DNA from: Anaerolineae bacterium
Lineage (GTDB): Bacteria > Chloroflexota > Anaerolineae > SSC4 > Amarolineaceae
Length of the DNA stretch: 5,127 nt
Direction of reading: 5' to 3'
NCBI GenBank assembly: GCA_013693795.1
Contig: CP059258.1
Location: 1,719,513-1,724,639, forward strand
Positions 2 through 4,938 of this stretch are shown here, one piece after another (position 1 is the stretch's first letter; every line of letters begins with the position of its first letter). A program made the position numbers and the translations under genes. Below the pieces are notes generated by a model. That model was given only the letters and a program-made list of their open reading frames with translations. It was not told where the DNA came from and searched no databases.

Positions 2-151
2 TTTACCGTCAGCAAATCCGGGTTGGCGACGTTGGTGCGTTATATCCAAAATCAACGCATCCACCACCAAAAACAGGATTTTCAAGCGGAGTATCTCGAT
101 TTCCTGAAAAGGCACGGGGTCGAATACGACGAACGCTACTTGTGGGGGTAA
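2..151 (+). CDS. IS200/IS605-like Y1 (HUH) transposase, C-terminal fragment; probable REP-associated transposase
   Basis: The reading frame enters from the left edge and gives 49 residues before TAA at 149-151. It ends in the tail typical of IS200-like single-strand transposases (HHxKxxF, then a Phe/Leu-rich helix, then YDERYLWG). The segment VRYIQNQ contains Y-x-x-x-Q. In characterised Y1 enzymes such as TnpA of IS608, the Tyr of this helix is the nucleophile that attaches to the 5' end of cut single-stranded DNA, and the Gln helps bind the metal. Here Tyr is at codon 41-43 and Gln at 53-55. The HUH motif lies upstream, outside the window, so activity cannot be judged. No break is visible in the part seen. 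Family members of this type often sit beside REP-like palindromes that they are thought to process, and a hairpin array starts only 7 bp after this stop. Whether it is a REP-associated (RAYT) enzyme or a self-mobile IS200 transposase cannot be decided from the tail. Confidence 0.88.
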   Translation, partial: FTVSKSGLATLVRYIQNQRIHHQKQDFQAEYLDFLKRHGVEYDERYLWG

Positions 152-155
152 CCTC

Positions 156-458
156 AACCGTCCCTACGGGACGGGCGTGTATCCCACGCGGCATGGGCTA
201 AAATCGGGCGTCCCTACGGGACGGGCGTGTATCCCGGCATGGGCTAAAGTCGGGCGTCTCTACGGGACGCGATCTCGCGTCGCACCTTCCGCCCCGACGG
301 CGTTCAACATTCGCCATCGACCGCACCGCGCCCCGTAGGGGCGCATGAATTTAGCCCCGATGCACGTACGCGTTCTCACGCGTCCCGTAGGGACGCCTGA
401 ATTGCGCATCGAGGCACGCGCATTCTCGCGCCCCGTCGAGACGTTCGCCCCTAGAATC
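156..458. repeat. Compound repeat unit 1 (303 bp)
   Basis: This is the first compound unit. TAC hairpins lie at 158-174, 209-223 and 254-270; the last has one arm mismatch (GCGTCTC). GTA hairpins lie at 328-344 (GCGCCCC/GGGGCGC) and 380-396 (GCGTCCC/GGGACGC). Degenerate copies lie near 290-302 and 428-443. It is about 48 bp longer than the next six units because it carries one extra short TAC monomer at its left end. Confidence 0.85.
158..174 (+). repeat. First array hairpin (TAC orientation), 7 bp after transposase stop
   Basis: CCGTCCC-TAC-GGGACGG is a perfect 7-bp stem with a 3-nt loop. It is preceded by TCAACCG, the same left flank found before the later long units, so the array homology starts at about 154. 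It lies so close to the transposase stop codon that it would be the 3' hairpin of that mRNA. No T-run follows, so it is not a canonical intrinsic terminator. Confidence 0.85.
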
Positions 459-1991
459 AACCGTCCCTACGGGACGGGCGTGTATCCTACGCGGCATGGG
501 CTAAAATCGGGCGTCCCTACGGGACGCGATCTCGCGTCGCACCTTCCGCCCCGACGGCGCGTTCAACATTCGCCATCGACCGCACCGCGCCCCGTAGGGG
601 CGCATGAATTAGCCTCGATACACGTACGCGTTCTCCGCGTCCCGTAGGGACGCCTGAATTGCGCATCGAGGCACGCATTCTCGCACCCCGTCGAGACGTT
701 CGATCCTAGAGTCAACCGTCCCTACGGGACGGGCGTGTATCCTACGCGGCATGGGCTAAAATCAGGCGTCCCTACGGGACGCGATCTCGCGTCGCACCTT
801 CCGCCCCGACGGCGCGTTCAACATTCGCCATCGACCGCACCGCGCCCCGTAGGGGCGCATGAATTTAGCCTCGATACACGTACGCGTTCTCCGCGTCCCG
901 TAGGGACGCCTGAATTGCGCATCGAGGCACGCATTCTCGCGCCCCGTCGAGACGTTCGATCCTAGAGTCAACCGTCCCTACGGGACGGGCGTGTATCCTA
1001 CGCGGCATGGGCTAAAATCAGGCGTCCCTACGGGACGCGATCTCGCGTCGCACCTTCCGCCCCGACGGCGTTCAACATTCGCCATCGACCGCACCGCGCC
1101 CCGTAGGGGCGCATGAATTAGCCCCGATGTGCGTACGCGTTCTCCGCGTCCCGTAGGGACGCCTGAATTGCGCATCGAGGCGCGCATTCTCGCGCCCCGT
1201 CGAGACGTTCGATCCTAGAGTCAACCGTCCCTACGGGACGGGCGTGTATCCTACGCGGCATGGGCTAAAATCAGGCGTCCCTACGGGACGCGATCTCGCG
1301 CCGCACCTTCCGCCCCGACGGCGCGTTCAACATTCGCCATCGACCGCACCGCGCCCCGTAGGGGCGCATGAATTTAGCCCCGATGCACGTGCGCGTTCTC
1401 CGCGTCCCGTAGGGACGCCTGAATTGCGCATCGCGGCACGCATTCTCGCGCCCCGTCGAGACGTTCGGTCCTAGAATCAACCGTTCCTACGGGACGGGCG
1501 TGTATCCCACGCGGCATGGGCTAAAATCGGGCGTCCCTACGGGACGCGATCTCGCGTCGCACCTTCCGCCCCGACGGCGCGTTCAACATTCGCCATCGAC
1601 CGCACCGCGCCCCGTAGGGGCACATGAATTTAGCCCCGATGTACGTACGCGTTCTCACGCGTCCCGTAGGGACACCTGAATTGCGCATCGAGGCGCGCAT
1701 TCTCGCGCCCCGTCGAGACGTTCGCCCCTAGAATCAACCGTCCCTACGGGACGGGCGTGTATCCCACGCGGCATGGGCTAAAATCGGGCGTCCCTACGGG
1801 GCGCGATCTCGCGTCGCACCTTCCGCCCCGACGGCGCGTTCAACATTCGCCATCGACCGCACCGCGCCCCGTAGGGGCGCATGAATTTAGCCTCGATGTA
1901 CGTACGCGCTTCGCGTCCCGTAGGGACGCCTGAATTGCGCATCGAGGCACGCGCATTCTCGCGCCGCGTCGAGACGTTCGATCCTAGAGTC
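459..1991. repeat. Six tandem ~255 bp BIME-like units
   Basis: Six units begin at 459, 714, 970, 1223, 1479 and 1736, with lengths 255, 256, 253, 256, 257 and 256 bp. Each runs: TAC hairpin (CCG class), CGTGTATC...GGCTAAAATC, TAC hairpin (GCG class), degenerate centre, GTA hairpin (GCGCCCC class), ATGAATTTAGCC...TACGCGTTCTC, GTA hairpin (GCGTCCC class), TGAATTGCGCATCGAGG, degenerate hairpin, CTAGARTCAA. TAC starts: 461, 511, 716, 766, 972, 1022, 1225, 1275, 1481, 1531, 1738, 1788. GTA starts: 587, 637, 842, 893, 1096, 1146, 1351, 1402, 1607, 1659, 1864, 1913. Single arm mismatches are seen in the copies at 1481, 1607, 1659 and 1788. The units differ by scattered substitutions and small indels, so they are older or less homogenised than the 207 bp block further on. 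Confidence 0.9.
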
Positions 1992-2362
1992 AACCGTCCC
2001 TACGGGACGGGCGCGTATCCCACGCGGCATGGGCTAAAATCGGGCGCCCCTACGGGACGGGCGCGTATCCTACGTGGCATGGGCTAAAATCGGGCGTCCC
2101 TATGGGACGCGATCTCGCGCCATACATTCCAACCTGTTGGGGCGTTCGGTCCTAAAATCGGGCGTCCCTACGGGACGCGATCTCGCGTCGCACCTTCCGC
2201 CCCGACGGCGCGTTCAACATTCGCCATCGACCGCACCGCGCCCCGTAGGGGCGCATGAATTAGCCTCGATGCACGTGCGCGTTCTCGCGTCCCGTAGGGA
2301 CGCCTGAATTGCGCATCGAGGCGCGCATTCTCGCGCCCGTCGAGACGTTCGGTCCTAGAGTC
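1992..2362. repeat. Variant compound unit (371 bp) with inserted short units
   Basis: This is a ~255 bp unit enlarged by extra monomers. TAC hairpins lie at 1994-2010, 2045-2059 (one mismatch), 2094-2110 (the loop is TAT, the only loop change I found) and 2162-2178. GTA hairpins lie at 2238-2254 and 2287-2303. Between 2111 and 2160 there is a degenerate element containing CAACCTGTTGGGGCGTTCGG. It recurs at about 2450-2470, and related forms occur at 2961-2980 and 3146-3165. Confidence 0.82.
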
Positions 2363-2482
2363 AACCGTCCCTACGGGACGGGCGTGTATCCCGTGCGGCA
2401 TGGGCTAAAATCGGGCGTCCCTACGGGACGCGATCTCGCGCCATACATTACAACCTGTTGGGGCGTTCGGTCCTAAATCGGG
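2363..2482. repeat. Transition segment of two TAC monomers plus degenerate hairpin
   Basis: It contains TAC hairpins at 2365-2381 and 2415-2431, then a degenerate CCTGTTGGGGCGTTCGG element. It links the long-unit zone to the short-monomer zone. The GTA-oriented half of the long unit is missing here. Confidence 0.78.
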
Positions 2483-2924
2483 CGTCCCTACGGGACGGGC
2501 GTGTATCCTACGCGGCATGGGCTAAAATCGGGCGTCCCTACGGGACGGGCGTGTATCCCGCGGCATGGGCTAAAATCAGGCGTCCCTACGGGACGGGCGT
2601 GTATCCTACGCGGCATGGGCTAAAATCGGGCGTCCCTACGGGACGGGCGTGTATCCGCGGCATGGGCTAAAATCAGGCGTCCCTACGGGACGGGCGTGTA
2701 TCCCACGCGGCATGGGCTAAAATCGGGCGTCCCTACGGGACGGGCGTGTATCCTACGCGGCATGGGCTAAAATCGGGCGTCCCTACGGGACGGGCGTGTA
2801 TCCGCGGCATGGGCTAAAATCAGGCGTCCCTACGGGACGGGCGTGTATCCCACGCGGCATGGGCTAAAATCGGGCGTCCCTACGGGACGGGCGTGTATCC
2901 TACGCGGCATGGGCTAAAGTCGGG
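2483..2924. repeat. Short-monomer run (nine 47-50 bp units) with exact 147 bp duplication
   Basis: Nine head-to-tail monomers start at 2483, 2533, 2581, 2631, 2678, 2728, 2778, 2825 and 2875. All are in TAC orientation, each being CGTCCCTACGGGACG followed by GGCGTGTATC, a variable CTACG/CACG/deleted segment, CGGCATGGGCTAAAATC and GGG or AGG. Three variants of 50, 47 and 50 bp form a higher-order unit of 147 bp. I read 2581-2727 and 2728-2874 as identical. The monomers before and after carry the same order in part, so multi-monomer blocks were duplicated, as in satellite DNA. Confidence 0.88.
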
Positions 2925-3174
2925 CGTCCCTACGGGACGCGATTTCGCGCCATGCGTTCCGTCCTGTCGGGGTGTTCGGTCCTAGAGTCAACCGTCCCTA
3001 CGGGACGTGCGCGTATCCTACGTGGCATGGGCTAAAATCGGGCGTCCCTACGGGACGCGATCCACGCCGTACATTCCGCCGCGTCGGGACGTTCGTCCCT
3101 AAAGTCGGGCGTCCCTACGGGACGCGATTTCGCGCCACGCGTTCCGTCCTGTCGGGGTGTTCGGTCCTAGAGTC
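2924..3174. repeat. Divergent transition zone
   Basis: TAC hairpins lie at 2924-2940, 2992-3008 (last arm base mutated), 3042-3058 and 3109-3125. They alternate with degenerate elements such as CCTGTCGGGGTGTTCGG and CCGCGTCGGGACGTTCG. The segment starting at 2941 (GATTTCGCGCCATGCGTTCC) recurs from about 3126 with one visible change. This shows a further direct duplication at a 185 bp spacing. Confidence 0.78.
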
Positions 3175-3794
3175 AACCGTCCCTACGGGACGGGCGCGTA
3201 TCCCACGGCATGGGCTAAAGTCGGGCGTCCCTACGGGGCGCGATCTCGCGTTATGCCTTCCGCTCCGACGGAACGTTCAACATTCGCCATCGACCGCACC
3301 GCGCCCCGTAGGGGCGCATGAATTTCGCCTCGGTGTGCACACCCATTCTCGCGCCCCGTCGAGACGTTCGGTCCTAGAGTCAACCGTCCCTACGGGACGG
3401 GCGCGTATCCCACGGCATGGGCTAAAGTCGGGCGTCCCTACGGGACGCGATCTCGCGTTATGCCTTCCGCTCCGACGGAACGTTCAACATTCGCCATCGA
3501 CCGCACCGCGCCCCGTAGGGGCGCATGAATTTCGCCTCGGTGTGCACACCCATTCTCGCGCCCGTCGAGACGTTCGGTCCTAGAGTCAACCGTCCCTACG
3601 GGACGGGCGCGTATCCCACGGCATGGGCTAAAGTCGGGCGTCCCTACGGGACGCGATCTCGCGTTATGCCTTCCGCTCCGACGGAACGTTCAACATTCGC
3701 CATCGACCGCACCGCGCCCCGTAGGGGCGCATGAATTTCGCCTCGGTGTGCACACCCATTCTCGCGCCCCGTCGAGACGTTCGGTCCTAGAGTC
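3175..3794. repeat. Three near-identical 207 bp tandem units
   Basis: Units start at 3175, 3382 and 3588 (207, 206 and 207 bp). By eye they differ at two places only: an A to G change at 3238 in copy 1, and a missing C near 3560 in copy 2. Each has two TAC hairpins (3177 and 3225; 3384 and 3432; 3590 and 3638) but only one GTA hairpin (3301, 3508, 3714). The second GTA hairpin of the 255 bp units is replaced by a 12-bp perfect palindrome, GGTGTGCACACC, at 3332-3343, 3539-3550 and 3745-3756. The near identity indicates the most recent amplification in the window. Because 207 is a multiple of three, a repeated 69-residue translation runs through the block. I treat that as an accident. Confidence 0.9.
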
Positions 3795-4009
3795 AACCGT
3801 CCCTACGGGACGGGCGCGTATCCTACGCGGCATGGGCTAAAATTGGGCGTCCCTACGGGACGGGCGTATCCTACGCGGCATGGGCTAAAATCGGGCGTCC
3901 CTACGGGACGGGCGTGTATCCTACGCGGCATGGGCTAAAATCGGGCGTCCCTACGGGACGGGCGTATCCTACGTGGCATGGGCTAAAATCGGGCGTCCCT
4001 ACGGGACGC
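3795..4009. repeat. Second short-monomer run (48/50 bp alternating)
   Basis: TAC hairpins at 3797, 3848, 3896, 3946 and 3993 are separated by alternating 50 and 48 bp monomers. The 48 bp type has GGCGTATCC where the 50 bp type has GGCGTGTATCC. This gives a two-monomer higher-order period of about 98 bp, distinct from the three-monomer period at 2581-2874. Confidence 0.84.
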
Positions 4010-4230
4010 GATCCACGCCGTACATTCCGCCGCGTCGGGACGTTCGACATTCGCTATCGACCGCACCGCGCCCCGTAGGGGCGCATGAATTTAGCCCCGA
4101 CGTACGTACGCGTTCTCCGCGTCCCGTAGGGACGCCTGAATTGAGATCCGCGCGTGCACGTTCTCGCGTCCCGTAGGGACGCCTGAATTGGCCGAGACGC
4201 ACGCGTTCTCGCGCGTCCCGTAGGGACGCG
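4010..4230. repeat. Terminal block of four consecutive GTA-oriented hairpins
   Basis: After a degenerate element (about 4028-4044), GTA hairpins lie at 4068-4084, 4119-4135, 4166-4182 and 4212-4230, with centres 51, 47 and 47 bp apart. This is the only place with more than two GTA copies in a row. The array therefore opens in one orientation and closes in the other. The final copy is CGCGTCCC-GTA-GGGACGCG, with an 8-bp arm. Homology stops abruptly after it. Confidence 0.86.
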
Positions 4231-4302: not shown

Positions 4303-4656
4303 ATGACCTTCAGAACCAGCCACCGTGCGGTATGGTTGGATCTGTGAATACTGGGAGCAGGGGTGGGAAGGCGATTTCTGGCGCATCTTCCAGGATGCCC
4401 GTTTCTGCACCAGCCGCCTGGCCGGCTGGCGGCCGGAGGGCATCGTACGCCTGGCCGATGGTCAGCGCCTGACGATCCTTGCCGACGATGACGCCGTGCT
4501 CTGGACGGGCCGTTTGCTGGCCCGAAAGATCGGGCGCTGCCAACGCCTGCCAACCCAGCCGTGGCAGCCCGCCTGGCATCCACTCGATGTCTCCGCCGAA
4601 ACCTGGGCGCACTGGTTCGGCGCCCATCCCCGTTGCGCGCCAGCCTGCAGGAATGA
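4303..4656 (+). pseudogene. Small Trp-rich protein of unknown function, two compensating frameshifts
   Basis: The frame from ATG 4303 (good RBS) reads 14 codons ending VWLDL, then TGA at 4345-4347. The +1 frame continues as EYWEQGWEGDFWRIFQDARF and stays open past 4625. Dropping one base at 4344 or 4345 joins them as VWLDLEYWEQGW. At 4628-4631 there is a run of four C. Adding one C returns to the first frame and gives HPPLRASLQE with TGA at 4654-4656. Without it the frame runs on into an unlikely tail to 4702. The repaired product would be 117 residues with about ten Trp, a hydrophilic middle (RLADGQRLTILADDDAVLW) and no signal peptide or membrane segment. I do not recognise the family. The shifts may be sequencing errors, since one is in a homopolymer, or true inactivation. 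A programmed shift is less likely. Codon use is otherwise that of a real GC-rich gene. Confidence 0.62.
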
Positions 4657-4938
4657 AGCGCCGCTCGGGCCGACGTGTGCCGTGATTTCACCCTATTCTT
4701 AAATCGGTAGCTGCTCAGCCAGCCGTTCAGAAACCGGGTTTTTTCGTGCGAGTGTCGTCAACCCGGCCGACCTCCAGCGCGGTGGTCTCGGCCATCAGCC
4801 CTGCCCGCGCTACCGGCCCAGTAGTTGGCCGCCGGCGTCTCATCACGCCTATCACACCAGGTCCCTGCACTTCCTGAACGCGCCTGTGTCATTCTGGCAG
4901 CGAAAGGGCAACCCTCTTGGATAACGGCCAGAGCCGAC
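4657..4938. other. Intergenic region between convergent genes, no supported gene
   Basis: This 282 bp stretch shows no convincing gene on either strand and no copies of the array hairpin. It holds AGAAACCGGGTTTTTT (4730-4744 region), of a kind I associate with intergenic repeats in some Chloroflexota. It also holds GTCATTCTGGCAGCGAAAGG (about 4887-4907), faintly like a common bacterial interspersed repeat beginning GTCATTCTGAGCG. Both resemblances are from memory. A minus-strand micro-ORF (4727-4843) ending EVGRVDDTRTKKPGF crosses the first motif. Confidence 0.5.
4723..4744 (+). terminator. Weak candidate intrinsic terminator for the 4303 gene
   Basis: CCGTT (4723-4727) pairs with AACCGG (4732-4737, one bulged C) around the loop CAGA. 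It is followed by G and six T (4739-4744). It lies about 67 bp after the repaired stop at 4656. The stem is short and imperfect, so support is modest. Confidence 0.35.

Follow-up and report, generated by a model that had tools for sequence, protein, structure and literature searches.

A kilobase hairpin array as the probable repeat family of a neighbouring single-copy IS200-like transposase in an Anaerolineae bacterium

We analysed a stretch of 5,127 nucleotides (nt) from an Anaerolineae genome (the window, positions 1,719,513-1,724,639), in which the 3' end of a Y1 transposase gene is followed at once by a 4.07-kb array of small hairpins (window positions 158-4230). Comparison of sequences indicates that the array is probably the amplified repeat family of this IS200-like transposase. 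Gene and repeats would form a system like that of the repetitive extragenic palindromic (REP) sequences and their associated tyrosine transposases (RAYTs), whose paired repeats are known as REPINs (REP doublets forming hairpins), here with an enzyme of the IS200 class. The genome (4.69 Mb, one contig, scored 77% complete) encodes one Y1 gene above the Pfam cut-off, along with a second, partial match of 21.5 bits (cut-off 23). The hairpin pattern CGTCCCTACGGGACG occurs 463 times, compared with 2 occurrences of the reversed pattern, and is grouped in about 16 arrays that range from a few hundred bp to 4.5 kb. Given a single gene against 463 hairpins, and matching hairpins around relatives of the gene in many phyla, the enzyme likely recognises and spreads the repeats.

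In a comparison of 199 genomes (the bacterium's own and 198 others of the class, 135 genera), the own genome stands out. It has 467 copies of GTCCCTACGGGAC; the two next richest have 9 and 5, and all others 0-3. A close relative of the transposase (TnpA) was found in the own genome only, the next best match having 38% identity. L and G numbers below denote the loci and genomes compared, and L036 is the own-genome locus.

Hairpins around relatives of the gene and in gene-less copies

Related loci were the best 80 of 302 confirmed places, to which some counts add the own locus (81); the closest relative among the matches listed (genome G199) has 83% identity. A pattern-free scan (stem of at least 6 bp with at least 4 G or C, loop of 3-5 nt) found 12.3 hairpins per kb upstream and 12.7 downstream within 150 bp of the gene, 5.8 and 5.4 per kb at 150-300 bp, and 0.83 and 0.82 per kb at 4-10 kb, the DNA near the gene being about 15 times denser. 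Two of the 80 loci (L114 and L124) have no hairpin within 450 bp. Subclass 1.2 of the Y1 transposases, whose motifs the enzyme has, is reported to be without gene-side hairpins; here they are present at about 12 per kb versus 0.8 far from the gene. The scan replaced a first enrichment test at the same loci, in which CCCTACGGG (62 near, 19 far) was compared with the loop-changed CCCATCGGG and CCCGATGGG (42 near, 9 far) and which was set aside because the loop-changed "control" is the hairpin of other genomes.

Two kinds of hairpin recur. The one that adjoins the gene (hp1) reads CGTC(C/G)C-loop-G(G/C)GACG and lies within 120 bp downstream at 64 of 81 loci, upstream at 61 and on both sides at 51. 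Read outwards from the gene, its gene-side foot is TTCA in 61 of 125 copies and NTCA in 86, and its outer foot TTCA in 4 and NTCA in 7. Since the foot is on the gene side of both copies, these are mostly inverted. The second hairpin (hp2) has a 6-11-bp stem and a TTCA or TTTA loop (188 of 192 copies), and is present within 1.2 kb at 59 of 80 loci. Its 5' foot, on the strand opposite to the hp1 foot, is TAG in 167 of the 192 copies (GTAG in 69, ATAG in 44, TTAG in 30), and its other foot is TAG in one. On a single strand the composite is hp2-CTA-NNN-TTCA-NNC-hp1, and the window has this order in worn form, with CTAAATTCATGC, CTAAAATCGGGC and CTAGAGTCAACC 5' of its hairpins.

These feet bear on a recognition layout proposed earlier in a reading of the sequence alone, in which a GTAG straddles loop and stem of the GTA-oriented copies. 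The tetranucleotide is literally there, in CCC-GTA-GGG, but it is no conserved feature. We rejected GTAG in the loop as a guide, as the loop varies between relatives (for hp1, TAC in 31 of 125 copies, GAT in 16, TGAC in 16, and others), and what is conserved is the TTCA foot of hp1 and the opposite-strand TAG foot of hp2. Because the window retains the composite order with its feet, if worn, the GTAG of its loop is incidental. A GTAG inside a hairpin loop can thus mimic a RAYT guide.

The hp1 stem follows the enzyme. A quick tree was built from 81 transposases, with good support for 16 of its 78 inner branches. On it, the stem type, CGTCCC or CGTCGC as labelled at 70 loci with four other types excluded, changes 4 times, compared with 20.2 in label shuffles (0 of 500 as low). 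Loop length changes 11 times on this tree. Both stem types are found within Acidobacteriota, Verrucomicrobiota, Planctomycetota and Thermodesulfobacteriota, and the pairing of stem and enzyme is therefore not just a matter of host phylum.

The hairpins also recur away from the gene. The guide-plus-hairpin pattern TTCANNCGTCSCN{3,4}GSGAC has 992 matches in 51 carrier genomes (the own genome and those of 50 of the 80 loci), versus 5 for a reversed control, with at least one match in 44 of the 51; TnpA matches per carrier number 1-13, and once 29. We identified ten gene-less symmetric elements in G203, built as TAG-hp2, about 22 nt, hp1, TGAA, a centre of 4-15 nt, TTCA, hp1, about 22 nt and hp2-CTA. 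The arms of eight match those of the gene-bearing locus L056 at 57-65 of 68-75 aligned positions, and the other two, a second family with a different hp2, at 49-54 of 66-72; shuffled rows, which align over varying short stretches (4-41 matching positions), are a weak control. In an alignment of 17 arms (16 gene-less, one gene-bearing), conservation reaches about 120 nt from TTCA, beyond a further hairpin, with the outer end ATTTATGCACAGGCTTCA. Of the 16 gene-less arms, 14 contain TGCACA, as does the downstream gene-bearing arm; the upstream one has TGTACA. Since arms and most outer ends are common to gene-less and gene-bearing copies, the transposase sits inside a kind of element that is gene-less elsewhere, as RAYTs do in REPINs. 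The inverted hairpins on its two sides recur many times gene-less in the genome. Within the outer ends ATTTATGCACAGGCTTCA of gene-less elements (L179-L187, L056 of G203), TTATGCACA resembles a DnaA box.

The expectation that the hairpin is commoner where the transposase is present was borne out as an association, with exceptions taken up below. Of 195 genomes around carrier G203, 108 have a close TnpA (E <= 1e-35) and 87 do not. At least 3 guide-plus-hairpin matches were found in 50 of the former and 9 of the latter (odds ratio 7.5, Fisher 2.5e-8, kinship uncorrected), and at least 10 in 18 and 5, respectively (p 0.02, likewise uncorrected).

Twenty-nine more distant relatives from the bacterium's own class (26 with exact Y..Q..HH) have 8.7 and 8.2 gene-side hairpins per kb within 150 bp, versus 1.0 and 0.8 at 600-1500 bp; no TTCA-hp1 was found within 170 bp of these 29. 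The distant Y..Q..HH transposases at L132-L160 have inverted hairpins of quite other sequence (e.g., aacccgcNNNgcgggtt at L136 and agccccNNNggggct at L157), as if distant lineages each owned a private hairpin.

The array, its gene and the enzyme

The window contains the following features.

2-151, forward strand: 3' end of the Y1 transposase gene (subclass 1.2), 49 codons and stop; Pfam Y1_Tnp 106 bits, NCBIfam transpos_IS200 82 bits
154-157, forward strand: foot TCAA between stop codon and array, directly 5' of the first hairpin; worn form of the TTCA foot conserved in relatives
158-174, forward strand: first array hairpin (hp1), CCGTCCC-TAC-GGGACGG, 6 bp past the stop codon; from the perfect-hairpin count
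158-4230, no single strand: hairpin array of 39 TAC- and 23 GTA-oriented perfect hairpins; spacer types give periods of 50, 68, 207 and 256 bp, among others
2475-2939, forward strand: about nine head-to-tail 50-bp units of hp1, a small hairpin (GCGTG-TATCC-CACGC or variants) and a GGCATGGGCTAAAATCGGG foot; period 50, 9.5 copies, 94% matches
4212-4230, reverse strand: last array hairpin, CGCGTCCC-GTA-GGGACGCG

The full transposase gene (L036:7212-7664) encodes 150 amino acids, with one masked base in codon 101. The sequence-only reading was right in seeing a Y1 tail with YxxxQ that ends at 151, as the frame holds the last 49 residues, YIQNQ among them, with the stop codon at 149-151, and right in placing an array of about 4.1 kb immediately behind it. 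Its figure of about 68 hairpins is fair once imperfect ones join the 62 perfect ones (stem of at least 5 bp, 3-nt loop), of which 39 have a TAC and 23 a GTA loop. The bare cores CCCTACGGG and CCCGTAGGG occur 42 and 23 times in the array, and hairpins of any loop number 65, compared with 2-9 in 20 mononucleotide shuffles. The repeat periods given by Tandem Repeats Finder include 46-50, 68, 207 and 256 bp. A further array of about 12 hairpins (L036:6584-7195) lies upstream of the gene, outside the window, and ends about 17 bp 5' of the start codon. Its hairpins are in the opposite orientation, and the gene thus sits between two inverted arrays.

Four pieces were folded as single-stranded DNA. 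The first hairpin with the adjoining small hairpin gave a z of -3.4 and the other pieces 0.4, -10.0 and -0.1; the second and fourth, which were cut regardless of unit borders, folded no better than shuffles. Long frames inside the array track the repeats and were rejected as genes, and Rfam gave no match above gathering scores. In the 50-bp unit, the small hairpin that accompanies hp1, GCGTG-TATCC-CACGC (window about 175-190), resembles GCGGGC-ATCCT-GCCCGC of Acidobacteriota-side arrays (L169:8060-9250) and may be a third conserved one.

The own genome has a further repeat, about 165 bp long with the ends CTACAACCGTACTT and AAGTACGGTTGTAG, which at 11 of 15 array loci (L037, L039, L041-L047, L049 and L050) lies among the hairpin arrays and along their borders. 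It is not in the window's array, and two solo copies are present in 39 sampled stretches (L213:8358-8514 and L221:13369-13532); it looks like a second element, similar to a miniature inverted-repeat transposable element (MITE). Across the 39 stretches and the 15 array loci, GC skew has no clear switch point by which to judge replichore bias of array orientation. As for neighbouring genes, a BNR-repeat protein is encoded upstream of the transposase (L036:5032-6552), and a frame of 125 amino acids 3' of the array (window 4325-4702, forward strand) has no Pfam match.

The enzyme motifs DHVH, WQ and YIQNQRIHH match the subclass 1.2 signature (DH[IV]H, WQ, Y---Q--HH), and its size of 150 amino acids and single over-cut-off gene fit that short, low-copy subclass. 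According to the survey by Quentin (2018, PMC6006769), subclass 1.2 has Y---Q--HH, a median length of 148 amino acids and low copy number, is without REPs and of unknown role, and occurs mostly in Cyanobacteria and Bacteroidetes; the same survey gives Y---NP as the motif of class 2, the RAYTs. Y---NP is absent from our enzyme, which has YIQNQ instead. Its AlphaFold model (mean predicted local distance difference test score 80, weak past residue 120) has the fold of an IS200-class TnpA. The nearest structures by Foldseek are ISDra2, IS608 and others of the IS200 class (29 chains, E 8e-8 to 2e-5), and the REP-bound TnpA 4er8 ranks thirtieth (E 5.6e-3). By motif, fold and hp1 foot, the enzyme is not a RAYT in the narrow sense. 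The RAYT-repeat pair suggested by the sequence-only reading therefore stands as a transposase-repeat pair with heavy local amplification, but with a Y1 enzyme of subclass 1.2 motifs and IS200-class fold in place of a class 2 RAYT.

Competing explanations and a proposed mechanism

Array dynamics were followed in G365 and G369, whose flanks are 93-97% identical. Arrays are at identical places and differ in hairpin number (12 and 6 in one array; 19/23, 27/29, 6/4 and 13/16 in the stretches compared). A search for empty sites in five pairs of 20-kb stretches found shared arrays of unequal length and no insertion site. What looked like an extra array in G365 belongs to a shared array that is split by a segment of about 8.6 kb. 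This segment, flanked by array copies (L228:874-9484 versus L229), is present in G365 and absent from G369, as if arrays promoted DNA insertion or loss through recombination.

An unlikely explanation is that the gene and its flanking hairpins are an ordinary IS200-type insertion sequence, and that the array arose by slippage duplication of one of its ends without involvement of the enzyme. The NCBIfam label, nearest folds among ISDra2 and IS608 TnpA, the many TnpA matches in some other genomes (up to 29) and the differing array lengths at fixed places in two close genomes are consistent with it. One gene to 463 hairpins in about 16 arrays is not, nor are the inverted flanking hairpins, unlike the one-strand ends of IS608, the arms shared by dispersed gene-less elements, or a stem type that tracks the enzyme. 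A self-mobile IS200, which had been named at the outset as an alternative, is not supported in the own genome, with its single over-cut-off Y1 gene and its inverted flanking hairpins.

Somewhat less probable again is that the arrays belong to the host and serve it in some other way, through transcription termination, chromosome organisation or protein binding, and that they grew by recombination, the gene having landed there by chance. The places of arrays are indeed fixed in the two close genomes, and nine genomes retain hairpins without a close enzyme; however, matching hairpins flank the gene across unrelated phyla, and it would take a coincidence to match stem types to enzyme clades. Least probable is that a class 2 RAYT elsewhere is the true partner, with hp2 and its GTAG foot as a canonical REP and the subclass 1.2 gene as a passenger in the element: 69 of 192 hp2 copies have GTAG, the hallmark of class 2 REPs in the 2018 survey (PMC6006769), at the very foot of the hairpin, but most hp2 feet are ATAG, TTAG or others, nearly all 80 loci have the gene bracketed by hairpins, hp1 stem type follows the subclass 1.2 tree, and the own genome, within its 77% completeness, is rich in the composite element, with a subclass 1.2 gene, no class 2 gene and no other Y1 gene over the cut-off (the weak partial match has 21.5 bits).

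Several observations weigh against a repeat family spread by the neighbouring enzyme. The fixed places of the G365 and G369 arrays mean that no recent jump is seen, hp2 is degenerate in the own genome, and a second enzyme could be missing from that genome because it is scored 77% complete. Seven of the 51 carriers have no guide-plus-hairpin match, including G199, whose feet are TCAGG and CCAATC. In the co-occurrence sample, fewer than 3 matches were found in 58 of the 108 genomes that have a close TnpA, and at least 3 in 9 of the 87 that lack one. Of these nine, six were checked for Y1 genes: G256 and G275 lack any match, G252 has short fragments, G262 has Y1 matches with stops, and G260 has the sole intact Y1 gene among the six, a distant one. 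G384 has 47 matches and only a weak partial Y1 match, as would fit an orphan repeat family or an assembly with gaps. The exceptions could be due to loss, incomplete assemblies or another enzyme.

For the pairing of enzyme and repeats we infer binding, cutting and mobility. The enzyme would bind the hairpins as single-stranded DNA, cut beside them by means of its HuH pair and Tyr115, and mobilise or multiply copies lacking the gene in trans, in the way proposed for RAYTs and REP sequences. For relatives, the enzymes of IS200/IS605 elements and REPs, PMC8266576 reports that the substrates are hairpins in single-stranded form and that the cut site is set, or probably set, by a tetranucleotide lying 5' of the hairpin. 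The TTCA and TAG feet here are, by analogy, likely guides, and would choose the cut site as in IS608 and probably REP. On the strand with the TTCA foot, the hp2 loop is TGAA, the complement of TTCA, and is a possible cut-site partner. Single elements could become kilobase arrays by slippage, unequal recombination or repeated insertion beside old copies, and growth may thus proceed through the enzyme or through slippage and recombination.

Comparison with known systems

We consider evenly balanced the broader proposal that IS200-class transposases turned to spreading REP-like repeats a second time, independently of RAYTs, such that the Y---Q--HH branch, in many phyla, has hairpin families of its own, with two guides on opposite strands (TTCA and TAG) as a new layout and the potential for kilobase arrays. 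If this holds, small palindromic repeats are linked to domesticated transposases outside the RAYT branch as well, an enzyme group left without a role in the 2018 survey gains a likely one, and feet on opposite strands add a recognition layout. The series from single symmetric elements to 4-kb arrays would be a natural one for asking how such enzymes copy repeats. In the literature searched, which excluded most subscription journals, the hairpin is unnamed and subclass 1.2 is not linked with repeats.

The system shares with RAYT/TnpA_REP enzymes (class 2) and their REPs, bacterial interspersed mosaic elements (BIMEs) and REPINs a low-copy Y1 enzyme between inverted hairpins, numerous symmetric copies that lack the gene and vary at their centre, and a tetranucleotide at the hairpin foot. 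The hp2 foot is often GTAG (69 of 192, with TAG in 167), whereas hp1 has TTCA instead of a foot of the GT[AG]G type. It differs in the Y---Q--HH motif in place of Y---NP, in a fold nearest to IS200-class TnpA, in two kinds of hairpin with feet on opposite strands, one of them TTCA, and in kilobase arrays. With IS200/IS605 elements (IS608 and ISDra2, subclass 1.1) it has in common a short Y1 enzyme that belongs to their class, has their fold and carries YxxxQ, along with gene-side hairpins and guide-like feet 5' of hairpins. Unlike these, it has a single gene with many gene-less hairpins, the same hairpin inverted on both sides rather than distinct one-strand left and right ends, and no near-identical gene copies in the own genome, which has one copy.

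Subclass 1.2 agrees with the enzyme in DHVH, WQ, Y---Q--HH, length (150) and low copy number. Here, however, it is associated with hairpins and frequent in Acidobacteriota, Verrucomicrobiota and Planctomycetota, a distribution other than that given by Quentin (2018). The GTAG- and CGTC-tagged REPs of Di Nocera (2013) are likewise tagged short palindromes that form large clusters in some species. CGTC lies in the stem here, with no unpaired tag, and identity with CGTC-tagged REPs was set aside for this reason. Compared by description, hp2 with a GTAG foot may overlap some of the GTAG families of Di Nocera, and an hp2-like GTAG family may already have been catalogued.

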